Assembly (NCBI RefSeq): GCF_003051005.1
Contig: NZ_QAOW01000002.1
Location: 124,001 to 188,000, forward strand
Reading direction: 5' to 3'
Length of the DNA: 64,000 bases
Source of the DNA: Rhodococcus sp. OK519
GTDB lineage: Bacteria; Actinomycetota; Actinomycetes; Mycobacteriales; Mycobacteriaceae
Part shown: positions 17,373 through 21,939 of the stretch, in pieces
Position numbering within the stretch: the first letter of the stretch is position 1
How the letters are laid out: every line of letters starts with the position of its first letter
Program-made: the position numbers and the translations under genes
Notes under the pieces: model-generated
The model's input: the letters and a program-made list of their open reading frames with translations, nothing else
Told to the model about the DNA's origin: nothing
The model's database searches: none

Positions 17373-17594
17373 ATGGCGAAGCGGAAGTGGGCAGAGCGGA
17401 GCCCGGTCCAGCGCGCGATCATCATCGCCCTGGGCTCGGTCCAGTTGAGTCTGGCGGCCAGCGCGTGGGCAGATCTCGCGACGCGGCGCCGTGAAGAGGT
17501 CAACGGCAGCAAGGGAAAGTGGGCCGCGATCATCGCCGTGAACTTCGTCGGTCCACTGTCGTACTTCCGGTGGGGCCGCCGCAAGTCGGCGTAG
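17373..17594 (+). CDS. Small PLDc_N-like membrane protein
   Basis: A 73-residue protein with two hydrophobic segments (AIIIALGSVQLSLAASAWA and WAAIIAVNFVGPLSYFRWG). The second matches the cardiolipin-synthase N-terminal type domain (PLDc_N) with the characteristic GPLxYFxxGR ending. ATG 17373 is preceded by AAAGGG. It is a free-standing small membrane protein of a type common in actinobacteria, and its function is unknown. It converges on the sortase gene. Confidence 0.8.
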   Translation: MAKRKWAERSPVQRAIIIALGSVQLSLAASAWADLATRRREEVNGSKGKWAAIIAVNFVGPLSYFRWGRRKSA

Positions 17595-17614: not shown

Positions 17615-18268
17615 CTATTGCTCGACGAGCTCGGCGTAAACGACAGTGTTGTCGCGGTAACTGCGTGCGGCGGTGTCGAATTCACCGCCGCAGGTGATCA
17701 ACCTGAGGCCGGGATAGTCGATGTCTCCATACACCGCCGCGGTCGGAAACGCGGCCTTGGCGTAGCGCTCGACCCGCGCGACGCGGAACCTGGCTGTGAC
17801 CCCATCGGATCGGACGGCGTCGACCCGATCACCCGGGGACAGTTCGTGGAGGCGGAGGAACACGCCGGGTTCGCCGTCCCAGTCGACGTGTCCGGCGACG
17901 ATGGCAGGTCCGATTTCCCCGGGGACGGGTGAGCCGGAATACCATCCGGCGGGAAAGGCTCCCGGAGGCACCTGCAGAGCTCCGTCAGGCTCCAGTCCGA
18001 GGTCCACGAGGTCGGAGTCGACCCCGATGGCAGGGATGACTATGCGGGCCGGACGAAGTGCGGTGGACATCGCGGGGCCCGGGGCGGCGGTGGCTACGAG
18101 ATCCGAGGCGGGCGTCGGGGTGAGTGTCGTGGTCGGCGGGGTGCGACTTTCGGATGCTGTTGTGGCGCAACCGGCCAGGAGCATCACGGTGGCAGCGCAG
18201 GCGCCCAGGACCACCGACAGGCCGTTGCCGAATGGTCTCCGGCAACGGCCTGTCGATACTTCATTCAC
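17615..18268 (-). CDS. Class F sortase
   Basis: Cysteine transpeptidase that attaches surface proteins to the cell envelope or joins proteins. The 217-residue protein has a lipobox-like N-terminal hydrophobic segment (VMLLAGC, residues 28-34), a Thr/Pro-rich linker and a sortase beta-barrel. The catalytic triad is visible as H127 in VAGHVDW, C193 in LRLITCGG and R202 in AARSYRDN. GTG 18266-18268 is weakly supported. The gene begins 15 nt after the stop of the giant repeat protein, so the two are almost certainly co-transcribed and the repeat protein is the obvious candidate substrate. Confidence 0.92.
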   Translation of the reverse strand: MNEVSTGRCRRPFGNGLSVVLGACAATVMLLAGCATTASESRTPPTTTLTPTPASDLVATAAPGPAMSTALRPARIVIPAIGVDSDLVDLGLEPDGALQVPPGAFPAGWYSGSPVPGEIGPAIVAGHVDWDGEPGVFLRLHELSPGDRVDAVRSDGVTARFRVARVERYAKAAFPTAAVYGDIDYPGLRLITCGGEFDTAARSYRDNTVVYAELVEQ

Positions 18269-18283
18269 AGTTGGATGCGGTCC

Positions 18284-21200
18284 CTACTGCTTGCGGCGGT
18301 GTCGCCCGGTGGCCGCGGCGGCGCCGGCCGTGGCCGCCAGAAGCAGTGCGGTCCCGAGGAGCACTCCGCGTCCTGCCGTGTCATCCGATGCACCCTTGTC
18401 GCCGGCCTCGACACCGCCGACGGGCACCGCGGAGATCTGAGCGCCCGCCTGACCCGCGGTGGGTGAGGTGACGGGCGCACTGATGTTCTGCGCTGTGGCC
18501 GCTGCGATTGCGGTCGGCTTGGCGATGTTGCCTCCCACCTCGCCTTCGCCCTCCCCTTGGCCTTCTGCGACCGCGCCGCCGCCGGCGTTCCCGTCGGATG
18601 CGAGCGTGCTTCCGAGTGCGGCTCCGCCGGCGAGTGCACTGCCGAGGGCCGCGCTTCCGAGCGTTCCGCCTCCGACGAGTGTGCTGCCGAGCGCGATGCC
18701 ACCGACCGCCGCGCTGCCAAGTGCGGCGCTGCCCAGCGCGGGAAGTGCCAGGCTGCCGAGGTCTGTTCCGCCGATGCTGCCGGTTTCGGAGCTGCCCGCG
18801 TCGGTTCCACCGGTGCTGCCGAGTCCGAGGCTGCCCAGCGCGAGGTCCGTGAGGCTGCCCAGATCCAGATCGCCACTGCCGGCCGTGAGGTCACCGCTGC
18901 CCGAGCTGCCCGCGTCGGTTCCGCCGGTGCTGCCCGCCTCACCCGTCGAACCGAGTGCAGCCGCACTGCCGAGCACCGGCAGGGCCAGGCTGCCCAGTGG
19001 AAGTGCGAGGCTACCCAACGCCACTTCGCCGAGGCTGCCCAGATCCAGATCGCCGCTTCCGGCGCTACCCGACTCGCCACCGCTACCGGAGTCACTGCCA
19101 GTGCCGAGATCGGCCAGGCTTCCCGGGGCCACTTCGGCGCCGCTTCCGGTGCCGGTGCTGCCCAGCCCGAGGCTACCCAGCGCGAGGTCCGTGAGGCTGC
19201 CCAGATCCAGATCGCCACTGCCGGCCGTGAGGTCACCGCTGCCCGAGCTGCCCGCGTCGGTTCCGCCGGTGCTGCCCGCCTCACCCGTCGAACCGAGTGC
19301 AGCCGCACTGCCGAGCACCGGCAGGGCCAAGCTACCGAACGGAAGCGCCAAGCTACCCAACACAGCCTCACCGACGCTGCCCAGATCCAGATCACCGCTA
19401 CCGACGGTCAGATCACCGAGACTGCCGGAATCCGCACTGCCCGAATCACTACCCGTGCCGAGATCAGCCAGGCTACCCAGATCCAGATCCGCACCACTGC
19501 CCGTGCCAGTGCTGCCCAAACCGAGACTGCCCAACGCCAGATCCGCGAGGCTACCCAAATCCAGATCACCACTGCCAGCGGTCAGATCACCGAGACTGCC
19601 GGAATCCGCACTGCCCGAATCACTACCGGAATCACTACCGGAATCACTACCCGTGCCGAGATCGGCCAGGCTGCCCAAGTCCAGATCCGAGGAACCCACA
19701 TCGGTACCACCGGTGCTGCCCGCCTCACCCGTCGAACCGAGTGCAGCCGCACTGCCGAGCACCGGCAGGGCCAAGCTACCGAACGGAAGCGCCAAGCTAC
19801 CCAACACAGCCTCACCGACGCTGCCCAGATCCAGATCACCGCTACCGACGGTCAGATCACCGAGACTGCCGGAATCCGCACTGCCCGAATCACTACCGGA
19901 ATCACTACCCGTGCCGAGATCGGCCAGGCTACCCAGATCCAGATCCGCACCACTGCCCGTGCCAGTGCTGCCCAAACCGAGACTGCCCAACGCCAGGTCC
20001 GCGAGGCTACCCAAATCCAGATCACCACTGCCGACGGTCAGATCACCGAGACTGCCGGAATCCGCACTGCCCGAATCACTACCGGAATCACTACCCGTGC
20101 CGAGATCGGCCAGGCTACCCAAGTCCAGATCCGAGGAACCGGCCGACGGCAACGCCAGGCTGCCCAACAAGGTCTCCCCCAGGCTGCCCAGATCCAGATC
20201 ACCACTACCCGCAGTCAGATCGGTAAGACTGCCCAAGTCCAGATCCGCGGAACCCACATCGGTACCACCGGTGCTTCCCGCCTCACCCGTCGAACCGAGT
20301 GCAGCCGCACTGCCGAGCACCGGCAACGCCAAGCTACCGAACGGAAGCGCCAAGCTACCCAACACAGCCTCACCGACGCTGCCGAGATTCAGCTCGCCAC
20401 TACCCGCACCCAAATCGGTAAGACTCCCGGCGGACTCGCTACCCGAATCACTACCCGTGCCGAGATCGGCCAGGCTACCCAGATCCAGATCACCGCTCCC
20501 GGCAGTCAGATCAGCGAGGCTTCCGGTGGGGAGATCGACGCTCCCCAGCGCCAATTCGGCCAGGCTGCCGAGATCGAGGGCCGGATTCGCGCTTCCCGCT
20601 GTCAGGTCGGTGCTGCCCGAGCTACCCGTGTCGCCAACGCTGCCCGCACCCAGATCGGCGAGGCTGCCGAGGTCGAGCGCGGCGCTGCCGACGGGCAATC
20701 CGAGGCTGCCGAGGGCCAGATCAGCCAGGCTCCCCAGGTCGATACCGCCACCGGCCGCGCTACCGAGCGCCAGCTGCGCCAGGGCGCCCAGGTCGAGTTC
20801 ACCGCTGCCCGTACTGCCGGGCGCGGAGCCGCCCCCTGCGCTGCCCGCGCCGAGGTCGGTCAGGCTGCCGAGGCCGACGTCGCTGCTCCCTGACGCATCG
20901 CTGCCCGTGTCGGCGCTACCCGCATCCGCCTGGCCCGCACTACCCGTCGCCAACTGAACCAGGGCGCCGAGCCCGAGTTCGACACTGCCCGAATCACTTC
21001 CGGTTTCTCCCAGACTGCCGGCGCCGGCGTCCCCGAGGCTGCCCAGGCCAAGGTCGGGGGCGGCCTCCGCCAGGCTGCCGGCATCCACGCCACCTCCACC
21101 GAAACTGCCGGCCCCGAGGTTCGCGAGGCTGCCCAGTGCCATCTGTGCAAGGTTCGCCAGGTCGAGGTTGCCGGCGCTTCCGGCATCCACGCCACCGTTG

Positions 21201-21445
21201 GCGCCACCCGGTCCAGCGGCGCTTCCGAGGCCGGCCTCGCCGTTGCCTCCGACGCTGCTGCCGAGCCCGGATAGCCCGCCGTTGGCACCACCGTTCGCGC
21301 TGCTGCCCAGTCCGTTCTGCGGAGCGGGCTGAGCCTGACTCACCGCCGGCGTGGCAATGGTCAAGGCCCCGACTGCAGTAGCAGCGACCATGATTCGGCT
21401 CTTCATCCGCAGCGTTCTCAGATTTCTGGCCCTATGGGTAGACAT
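18284..21445 (-). CDS. Giant Gly/Ser/Leu/Asp repeat surface protein, putative sortase partner
   Basis: A 1,053-residue secreted protein. After ATG 21443-21445 (GAGGAGG 10 nt upstream) come a basic region, a signal peptide ending near VSQAQP, about 880 residues of imperfect repeats, a Gly/Glu hinge (EGQGEGEGEVGG) and a C-terminal hydrophobic segment (GVLLGTALLLAATAGAAAA) with basic tail GRHRRKQ. Repeats are built from LDLGSLADL-type units and Asp-Ser stretches (DSGSDSGSADSG). Only a membrane-plus-basic-tail sorting end is visible; no LPxTG is present. It sits upstream of the class F sortase. Structural guess: a beta-solenoid stalk or adhesin. Confidence 0.85.
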   Translation of the reverse strand: MSTHRARNLRTLRMKSRIMVAATAVGALTIATPAVSQAQPAPQNGLGSSANGGANGGLSGLGSSVGGNGEAGLGSAAGPGGANGGVDAGSAGNLDLANLAQMALGSLANLGAGSFGGGGVDAGSLAEAAPDLGLGSLGDAGAGSLGETGSDSGSVELGLGALVQLATGSAGQADAGSADTGSDASGSSDVGLGSLTDLGAGSAGGGSAPGSTGSGELDLGALAQLALGSAAGGGIDLGSLADLALGSLGLPVGSAALDLGSLADLGAGSVGDTGSSGSTDLTAGSANPALDLGSLAELALGSVDLPTGSLADLTAGSGDLDLGSLADLGTGSDSGSESAGSLTDLGAGSGELNLGSVGEAVLGSLALPFGSLALPVLGSAAALGSTGEAGSTGGTDVGSADLDLGSLTDLTAGSGDLDLGSLGETLLGSLALPSAGSSDLDLGSLADLGTGSDSGSDSGSADSGSLGDLTVGSGDLDLGSLADLALGSLGLGSTGTGSGADLDLGSLADLGTGSDSGSDSGSADSGSLGDLTVGSGDLDLGSVGEAVLGSLALPFGSLALPVLGSAAALGSTGEAGSTGGTDVGSSDLDLGSLADLGTGSDSGSDSGSDSGSADSGSLGDLTAGSGDLDLGSLADLALGSLGLGSTGTGSGADLDLGSLADLGTGSDSGSADSGSLGDLTVGSGDLDLGSVGEAVLGSLALPFGSLALPVLGSAAALGSTGEAGSTGGTDAGSSGSGDLTAGSGDLDLGSLTDLALGSLGLGSTGTGSGAEVAPGSLADLGTGSDSGSGGESGSAGSGDLDLGSLGEVALGSLALPLGSLALPVLGSAAALGSTGEAGSTGGTDAGSSGSGDLTAGSGDLDLGSLTDLALGSLGLGSTGGTDAGSSETGSIGGTDLGSLALPALGSAALGSAAVGGIALGSTLVGGGTLGSAALGSALAGGAALGSTLASDGNAGGGAVAEGQGEGEGEVGGNIAKPTAIAAATAQNISAPVTSPTAGQAGAQISAVPVGGVEAGDKGASDDTAGRGVLLGTALLLAATAGAAAATGRHRRKQ
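18930..20420. repeat. Long direct DNA repeats inside the repeat-protein gene
   Basis: A module encoding LGSLALPxGSLALPVLGSAA and the following GSTGEAGSTGGTD recurs four times, at about 18.94-19.03, 19.28-19.38, 19.72-19.82 and 20.28-20.38 kb. About 145 bp from 19321 is identical in the copy beginning near 19765. The central copies use less GC-biased codons than both flanks of the gene. Confidence 0.85.
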
Positions 21446-21939
21446 CGTTCTTCGACCTCCTCGATCGGCATGCCAGCAACGCACAACAAACGCCCAAACC
21501 GCATGAAGGCAGAAAAAAACTGGCGAAGAACGCCCCCCGAAAAATCCGTCAGACCCCCGTCTGAGCGGATAGCAAAACCCCCGGCCACATGCATACAGGC
21601 ATGATCAAGATAGCATCTCGAACCGATATCGATCACCGACTGCATTCGATGAAGATCCGCGAATTCCCTTCGCGCAGCTAATCAATCAGATCTCATACCT
21701 GCCCGATCTGCGGGTTTCAATCAGGAAGGGCGGGTCACCGATCCGGAATTCACCCCGGGAATCACCCTCGAGTCGGGGGCGTTCGCATAGCCGCAGCAAG
21801 ACGGCCAAATTTACCGGTAACGAAGACGCCCCGAACAGCGATTGCCTGCGCGCATGAAAGCCCGAACGCCGCCGATGAATCCTGCGGCCATTCAGCCGGC
21901 ATGGGAATGCAACATGCTCCTTCGATCGCCGAACGCGGT
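21446..21939. other. 494-bp AT-richer upstream region of the repeat-protein operon
   Basis: No credible gene. The GC content is visibly lower than in the rest of the window, with runs such as AGAAAAAAACT. A perfect palindrome TCAGAC-CCCC-GTCTGA lies at 21549-21564, about 105 bp upstream of the start codon. The size and composition suggest a regulated promoter or a long untranslated leader, possibly with acquired DNA. Confidence 0.5.
21549..21564. promoter_or_regulatory. Palindrome upstream of the repeat-protein/sortase operon
   Basis: TCAGAC-CCCC-GTCTGA, a perfect 6-4-6 inverted repeat, placed as an operator or leader hairpin. Confidence 0.45.

Follow-up and report, generated by a model that had tools for sequence, protein, structure and literature searches.

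Sortases of class F were still described as enzymes of unknown physiological role in the available portion of a 2026 paper on Actinoplanes missouriensis (PMC13251363). In that portion, two proteins encoded beside class F genes are set aside for want of a recognised pentapeptide motif and are named by the authors as possible substrates. One kind of class F signal is already known in a protein-family database: NCBIfam holds a 'GVDTG sorting domain' (NF058571, GVDTG_CTERM) and a class F sortase model (NF033748), and proteins of this system share a C-terminal Pro-Gly-Val-x-[TA]-Gly signal, a hydrophobic stretch, a basic tail and a gene beside a class F sortase. The 2010 genome paper on Rhodococcus equi 103S reports, in the part available to us, two islands, srt1 and srt2, in which sortases lie with putative secreted substrates (PMC2947987). 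Here we analyse 64,000 nucleotides of Rhodococcus sp. OK519 (NZ_QAOW01000002.1, positions 124,001 to 188,000; "the window" denotes this whole stretch), in which a class F sortase gene follows the gene of a giant secreted repeat protein ending in the motif PVGGVEAG.

The window lies within a 5.28-Mb genome; among named relatives, Rhodococcus hoagii and species of Prescottella come closest to it in sortase sequence. We consider it likely that the two genes form a sortase–substrate cassette, in which the class F sortase anchors the PVGGVEAG-tagged repeat protein to peptidoglycan; the cleavage, the acceptor and the surface location are parts of this proposal that we infer from sequence. The original prediction had placed a class F sortase gene 15 nt after the gene of a 1,053-residue secreted repeat protein, and both the assignment and the coordinates were confirmed. 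Both genes are on the minus strand, and the locus comprises the following features.

17615..18268, minus strand: class F sortase, 217 residues, GTG start (NF033748, 189.1 bits; PF04203, 73 bits)
17690..17692, minus strand: predicted catalytic Cys193 of the sortase (alignment, 54/54)
17888..17890, minus strand: predicted catalytic His127 of the sortase (alignment, 54/54)
18167..18181, minus strand: lipobox LLAG-C34 of the sortase (by eye)
18284..21445, minus strand: giant Gly/Ser (GS)-rich repeat protein, 1,053 residues, ATG start (open reading frame (ORF) call); proposed dedicated substrate
18287..18304, minus strand: basic tail RHRRKQ of the repeat protein (sequence, tail alignment)
18305..18367, minus strand: hydrophobic C-terminal stretch, residues 1027-1047 (sequence, tail alignment)
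18401..18424, minus strand: putative sorting motif PVGGVEAG, residues 1008-1015 (tail alignment, NF058571 match)
18608..21307, minus strand: GS-rich repeat region, residues 47-946 (128 GS dipeptides, tandem units)
21332..21445, minus strand: predicted Sec-type signal peptide, residues 1-38 (cleavage site placed by eye)
21446..21635, minus strand: conserved 5' leader of the repeat-protein gene with ribosome-binding site GAGGAGG (alignment of 22 leaders)

The two genes are paired across the genus. An N-terminal query of 117 residues finds the repeat protein in 12 of 14 genus genomes, and PF04203 sortases occur in the same 12, the other two (G004 and G011) having none. A check of co-occurrence had been proposed with the original prediction, together with the possibility of homologues in genomes devoid of any sortase; among the genomes searched, none with a repeat-protein homologue lacks a sortase. 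A C-terminal query of 71 residues was run against 201 genomes of the family, an even draw from a larger set; it found the protein in 12, all of them within the genus.

The repeat gene and the sortase gene are direct neighbours in 11 of the 12 genomes and are parted by a tandem duplication in the remaining one (G003). This duplicated cassette (L118, G003:C12:160000-172000) consists of two repeat genes, one sortase fragment and one full-length sortase, the fragment and a diverged second copy being situated between the tail and the intact sortase. By mechanical ORF calls, 9 of 12 regions, the window counted in, have 3-15 nt between the end of the repeat gene and the sortase start. The mechanical sortase ORF of L116 starts within the repeat gene, and its homologous stretch begins 13 nt after that gene; in L121, from a genome 79% complete, the frames are broken and the two stretches still adjoin. 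Both genes of G009 (79% complete) and its other sortase gene have broken frames, and this genome was counted for presence only. At loci with both ends seen, the repeat protein measures 497 to 1,181 residues from the ATG.

The surroundings are conserved as well. Next to the sortase, 10 of 11 relatives' regions have an amidohydrolase gene (it was not found in L115), and an acyl-CoA synthetase gene is located on the other side of the pair in 6 of 11, two of the remainder stopping at a contig edge. These conserved flanking genes suggest a resident locus and not a mobile island.

The C-terminus of the repeat protein consists of PVGGVEAG, a hydrophobic stretch and the basic tail RHRRKQ, and within this fast-changing protein no part is better conserved than the one bearing the motif. 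PVGGVEAG is invariant in all six aligned Prescottella tails, and L117 has PVGGVDAG. The pattern P.G.V.[TA]G is present only once in the repeat protein, at PVGGVEAG; shuffling the last 110 residues 20,000 times produces it in 72 cases. NF058571 matches the Prescottella tails scanned alone in six cases out of six. No LPXTG was seen in the tail by inspection, and scanned alone at E ≤ 10 the tail matches only NF058571, not TIGR01167. The pattern of that sorting domain, in our own wording a C-terminal motif, a hydrophobic stretch, a basic tail and a gene beside a class F sortase, is seen here.

This kind of signal is widely associated with class F sortases. We took 80 class F sortase loci, the best 80 of 226 relatives, and looked for same-strand ORFs that end at most 700 nt upstream of the sortase and have P.G.[VA].[TA]G among their last 75 residues. 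With two loci dropped at contig edges, the motif was found upstream in 69 of 78 loci and downstream in none. Upstream, LP.TG was found at one locus, and one reversed and two shuffled motifs were found at 1, 0 and 0 of the 78; the reversed and shuffled motifs gave 0-4 downstream and 1-4 on the opposite strand.

The co-occurrence of the two curated models is independent of this count, since they were used in place of our own motif. Among 249 genomes of the order, a class F match is present in 138 of the 142 with NF058571 versus 64 of the 107 without it (Fisher p 1.7e-14, a value that ignores relatedness; matches at E ≤ 0.001, over the cut-offs or not). When six class F partners were scanned with NF058571, five gave a match at E ≤ 0.01, and one of these five exceeded the cut-off of the model. 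That the sortase would act on the neighbouring repeat protein is well supported by the presence of both in the same 12 of 14 genomes, by their adjacency and by a C-terminal signal common to most upstream partners of related class F enzymes.

The sortase scores 189.1 bits against the NCBIfam class_F_sortase cut-off of 166 and is also recognised by the Pfam Sortase family. His127 and Cys193 are both kept in 54 of 54 aligned sequences, the window sortase counted in, and its profile has no PDB sequence match at E ≤ 1e-6. From the lipobox LLAGC, the predicted enzyme is probably a lipoprotein instead of a transmembrane protein; the lipobox cysteine is conserved among the Prescottella sortases compared. 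A crude rule, applicable to 72 of the 80 class F loci, detects a lipobox in 25 of them, among these all five Prescottella loci and 8 of 10 with ice-binding-like partners. Arg205 (17654-17656), at the usual position of the sortase arginine, is found in just 24 of the 54 aligned class F sequences, while Arg189, four residues before Cys193, is invariant and Asn207 occurs in 53 of 54. To judge from this one alignment, the role of the catalytic arginine may be taken by another residue in class F.

The bodies attached to the signal belong to unrelated families. Ten partners compared with Pfam gave Ice_binding (2), CHRD (3, all below the family cut-off), Excalibur (2), DUF4397 (2) and no match (1). 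Grouped after removal of their tails, the 69 partners fall into CHRD-like (31), Excalibur (13), Ice_binding (10) and DUF4397 (4) groups, one pair and nine singletons; the four GS-repeat partners are among these singletons, as a result of the low-complexity filter applied. The partner families track the sortase tree, with 18 changes against a shuffled mean of 46.3 and none of 200 shuffles as low; for this comparison the GS-repeat label of L004-L007 was set by hand, since no matches arise between the repeat bodies once they are filtered. The Prescottella sortases form one group in the tree (support 90/89).

The partners at L009, L011, L013, L022, L024 and L082, and also at L008, L014 and L018, stop 5-27 residues past P-x-G-x-V-x-T-G. 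They show no clear hydrophobic stretch, and the crude rule gives their sortases a lipobox in eight of nine cases. A sortase signal that lacks a membrane tail would be unusual.

We are evenly divided on a wider generalisation, in which most class F sortases of the Actinomycetota would belong to one-substrate cassettes and read P-x-G-[GAS]-[VA]-x-[TA]-G, not LPXTG. Bodies (ice-binding-like, CHRD-like, Excalibur, DUF4397, GS repeats) would have been swapped wholesale between lineages, one branch would have tail-less substrates, and Prescottella would possess a genus-specific, co-regulated GS-rich family with a common leader RNA.

Several observations weigh against the cassette or its generalisation. 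The window tail scanned alone against NF058571 gives E = 1.6e-4 and 21.9 bits, short of the curated cut-off of 29, and on account of this score we regard PVGGVEAG, with GVEAG for GVDTG, as a variant of that sorting domain. NF058571 has no match at E ≤ 1 to the whole repeat protein and none at E ≤ 0.001 in the window's own genome, where 27 of 39 candidates were scored. The expected cleavage position of PVGGVEAG is occupied by Ala, not Thr. The class F loci compared are mutually related and not a sample of the whole of class F; the motif was noticed on them first and counted on them afterwards, and 8 of the 78 loci also have it on the opposite strand, over a longer stretch. Nine loci (L005, L030, L031, L036, L053, L061, L068, L073 and L075) are without the counted motif, L005 having it in a tandem copy further upstream and L036 and L075 having near forms (VVPRGAPQTGDG and VVPKGAPETGDG, respectively). 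Partners with no hydrophobic stretch after the motif are unexplained by the standard sortase mechanism.

The absence of the pair from G004 and G011 is weak evidence, because a search of these two genomes for the flanking amidohydrolase, made without a positive control, was negative as well and shows no empty site. We take the predicted substrates of the class F sortase of Cutibacterium acnes to be LPXTG proteins. That enzyme, of the same class by name, is called a housekeeping sortase with 19 predicted substrates in the text available (PMC8200545), in contrast to the apparent one-substrate cassette of the window. All four class F sortases of A. missouriensis were deleted with no phenotype, according to the text available (PMC13251363).

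These observations bear most directly on the strongest alternative, that the repeat protein is a tail-anchored membrane protein or a secreted one and the sortase serves other proteins, the genes merely belonging to one operon. The score of the tail below the curated cut-off, the quadruple deletion in Actinoplanes as reported in the part consulted (PMC13251363) and the partners devoid of a hydrophobic tail would all agree with it. We nevertheless judge it unlikely: conservation is highest in the C-terminal part with the motif, and the motif recurs on paralogues with differing bodies and on unrelated partners beside class F sortases elsewhere.

Other sortases are encoded in the same genome. In a second sortase island (L126 806-5656 and 5982-6785; G000:C1, ~1.346 Mb), a class E sortase adjoins a 1,616-residue LPVTG protein, an arrangement like that of srt2 of R. 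equi 103S, described in the text available as a sortase with an LPVTG protein (PMC2947987). A third sortase, class F-like (L127 5684-6472; G000:C1, ~1.385 Mb), reaches 79.6 bits, under the cut-off of 166, and within the 12 kb around it no ORF of at least 100 residues with LPXTG or P-x-G-x-V-x-[TA]-G is listed. Elsewhere in the genus, G010 has three PF04203 matches.

The class E enzyme, standing beside its LPVTG protein in the same genome, raises the alternative that both sortases can anchor the repeat protein and that the pairing is not exclusive. This is very improbable in our view, as the signals differ (LPVTG versus PVGGVEAG) and the class F gene is kept at the locus in all 12 repeat-protein genomes, G003 and G007 having no second PF04203 match. 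Least probable of all is polymerisation of the repeat protein, or its crosslinking with paralogues, into a pilus-like fibre, for although a dedicated sortase adjoins a large repeat protein and same-tail paralogues exist in six genomes, no conserved lysine was seen in the body to accept an isopeptide bond (residues 41-985 hold a single Lys or Arg, by inspection a Lys beside P977 that is replaced by Gln in L003), the sortase is of class F with no class C model among its NCBIfam matches at E ≤ 1, and neither the N- nor the C-terminal query found a paralogue in the genome to which the window belongs. Where the original prediction had the sortase anchor or crosslink the protein, we thus retain its action on the protein, on the comparative grounds of the pairing and the shared signal, and regard the crosslinking as unlikely.

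The composition of the repeat protein includes G253, L177, S165, A156 and D91, and no Cys. It has 128 GS dipeptides between residues 47 and 946, spaced 3-16 residues apart with a mode of 8, and tandem DNA units of, among others, 342-456 nt are present in the gene. The signal peptide, repeats, hydrophobic C-terminus and basic tail of the original prediction stand; the repeats have no regular period. No Pfam or NCBIfam family matches the whole protein at E ≤ 1, and no PDB relative was found at E ≤ 0.001. Between repeat copies inside the gene, 28.5% of synonymous versus 7.0% of non-synonymous sites differ, in a crude count over eight overlapping comparisons. This lower non-synonymous difference, with the occurrence of the same N- and C-terminus in 11 further genus genomes, argues that the protein is more than a chance reading frame. 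On the other strand, ORFs of 832 and 778 residues are probably a side effect of the repeats.

The original prediction suggested that the LxLGSLxxL blocks could form a solenoid. By Fourier analysis, no periodicity of the hydrophobic pattern exceeds that of shuffles: the top value, 1.36 at 7.5 residues, stays under the 95% level (1.75) of the maxima from shuffled sequences. The β-type moment of the body is raised (0.748 versus 0.627 ± 0.033) and the helical moment is not. Simple disorder was considered for the body and rejected: a hydropathy of 0.536, above the charge-hydropathy boundary (0.456), sets it apart from typical charged disordered proteins.

The Asp-Ser linkers had been likened to those of staphylococcal Sdr adhesins. 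Short Asp-Ser-rich stretches and sortase anchoring, the latter proposed for the window protein, are features of both, but the resemblance proved weak: the Ser-Asp regions of Sdr adhesins are much longer than ~18 residues and accompany a folded adhesin domain, whereas the longest Asp-Ser-Gly run here is ~18 residues by inspection, with no Pfam domain at E ≤ 1 and no LPXTG tail. A better model for the role of the body, the best available, is offered by CwpA and CwpB of A. missouriensis and the long chaplins of Streptomyces, sortase-anchored hydrophobic proteins proposed to alter the surface, the SrtE-anchored CwpA/CwpB being proposed to make it hydrophobic, in the portion of the paper at hand (PMC13251363). 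The Actinoplanes system differs in its class E sortase and LPVTG signal, and the likeness of these proteins to the GS repeats is one of description only. On this likeness we would tentatively guess at a role in surface hydrophobicity, aggregation or adhesion.

Smaller GS-rich secreted paralogues are encoded away from the sortase in 6 of the 12 genomes (G002, G003, G006, G007, G009 and G013). They have the N-terminus of the repeat protein and a tail such as VVPMGGVEAGGG; the G009 gene is in two pieces. Other proteins (L140 5430-6458, L143, L145 and L147) have the common N-terminus and GSHDGS-type repeats but no such tail.

An alignment of 22 leaders of 190 nt, 11 from the main gene (one of them a tandem copy) and 11 from paralogues, contains conserved blocks common to all, with a mean column identity of 63%. 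A search of 14 genomes with the leader pattern gave 14 matches, 13 of them before family genes (in 9 of the 12 pair-bearing genomes) and one elsewhere (G005); the reversed pattern gave none. From this shared leader and its matches, the repeat protein and its paralogues look co-regulated. At gathering thresholds Rfam has no match in the window, leader included. RNAalifold predicts a long-range stem in the leader, GCCTRTATGCAT / CATGCGGTTGGGC, with modest support (6 of 20 pairs with two-sided change).

Taken together in a mechanism, the repeat protein, whose signal peptide points to Sec, would be exported by that route and kept in the membrane by the hydrophobic stretch and basic tail at its C-terminus. 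The class F sortase, probably a lipoprotein on the outward side of the membrane, would recognise PVGGVEAG, cleave it between A1014 and G1015, by analogy with LPXT|G, and join the released end to peptidoglycan. The product would be a 900-residue, acidic, almost Lys-free, hydrophobic Gly/Ser-rich brush, which in extended form could be long enough to span the arabinogalactan and mycolate layers. Where pair-bearing genomes also encode the small GS-rich paralogues with the same tail, as half of them do, the same sortase may serve these too.

To call this an undescribed system, as the original prediction did, is too strong, because the sorting domain is already in NCBIfam and the R. equi genome paper reports sortase islands in the part available (PMC2947987). 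Of these, srt1 belongs to the same genus and has a sortase beside a putative substrate; that text describes it with no motif, class or gene number (PMC2947987). From the NF058571 proteins at large, the window protein is set apart by its giant GS-repeat body and by a C-terminus confined to the genus among the 201 family genomes. No published class F signal of this kind was found in the open-licence literature, and within the reach of the searches made nothing describes the GVEAG variant, the giant constrained GS-repeat body, its paralogue family or the leader they share. On the far side of the sortase, a small protein of 73 residues (17373-17594, plus strand) converges on the sortase gene and, by eye, is similar to PLDc_N-type membrane proteins.

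The unusual tag may reveal what the little-understood class F sortases recognise. The presence of the signal at the end of the upstream gene in most of the related class F loci turns the question of class F recognition into a direct test of peptide cleavage. If the proposal is true, a giant surface protein would be covalently anchored in a mycolate-bearing genus with an animal pathogen among its members.

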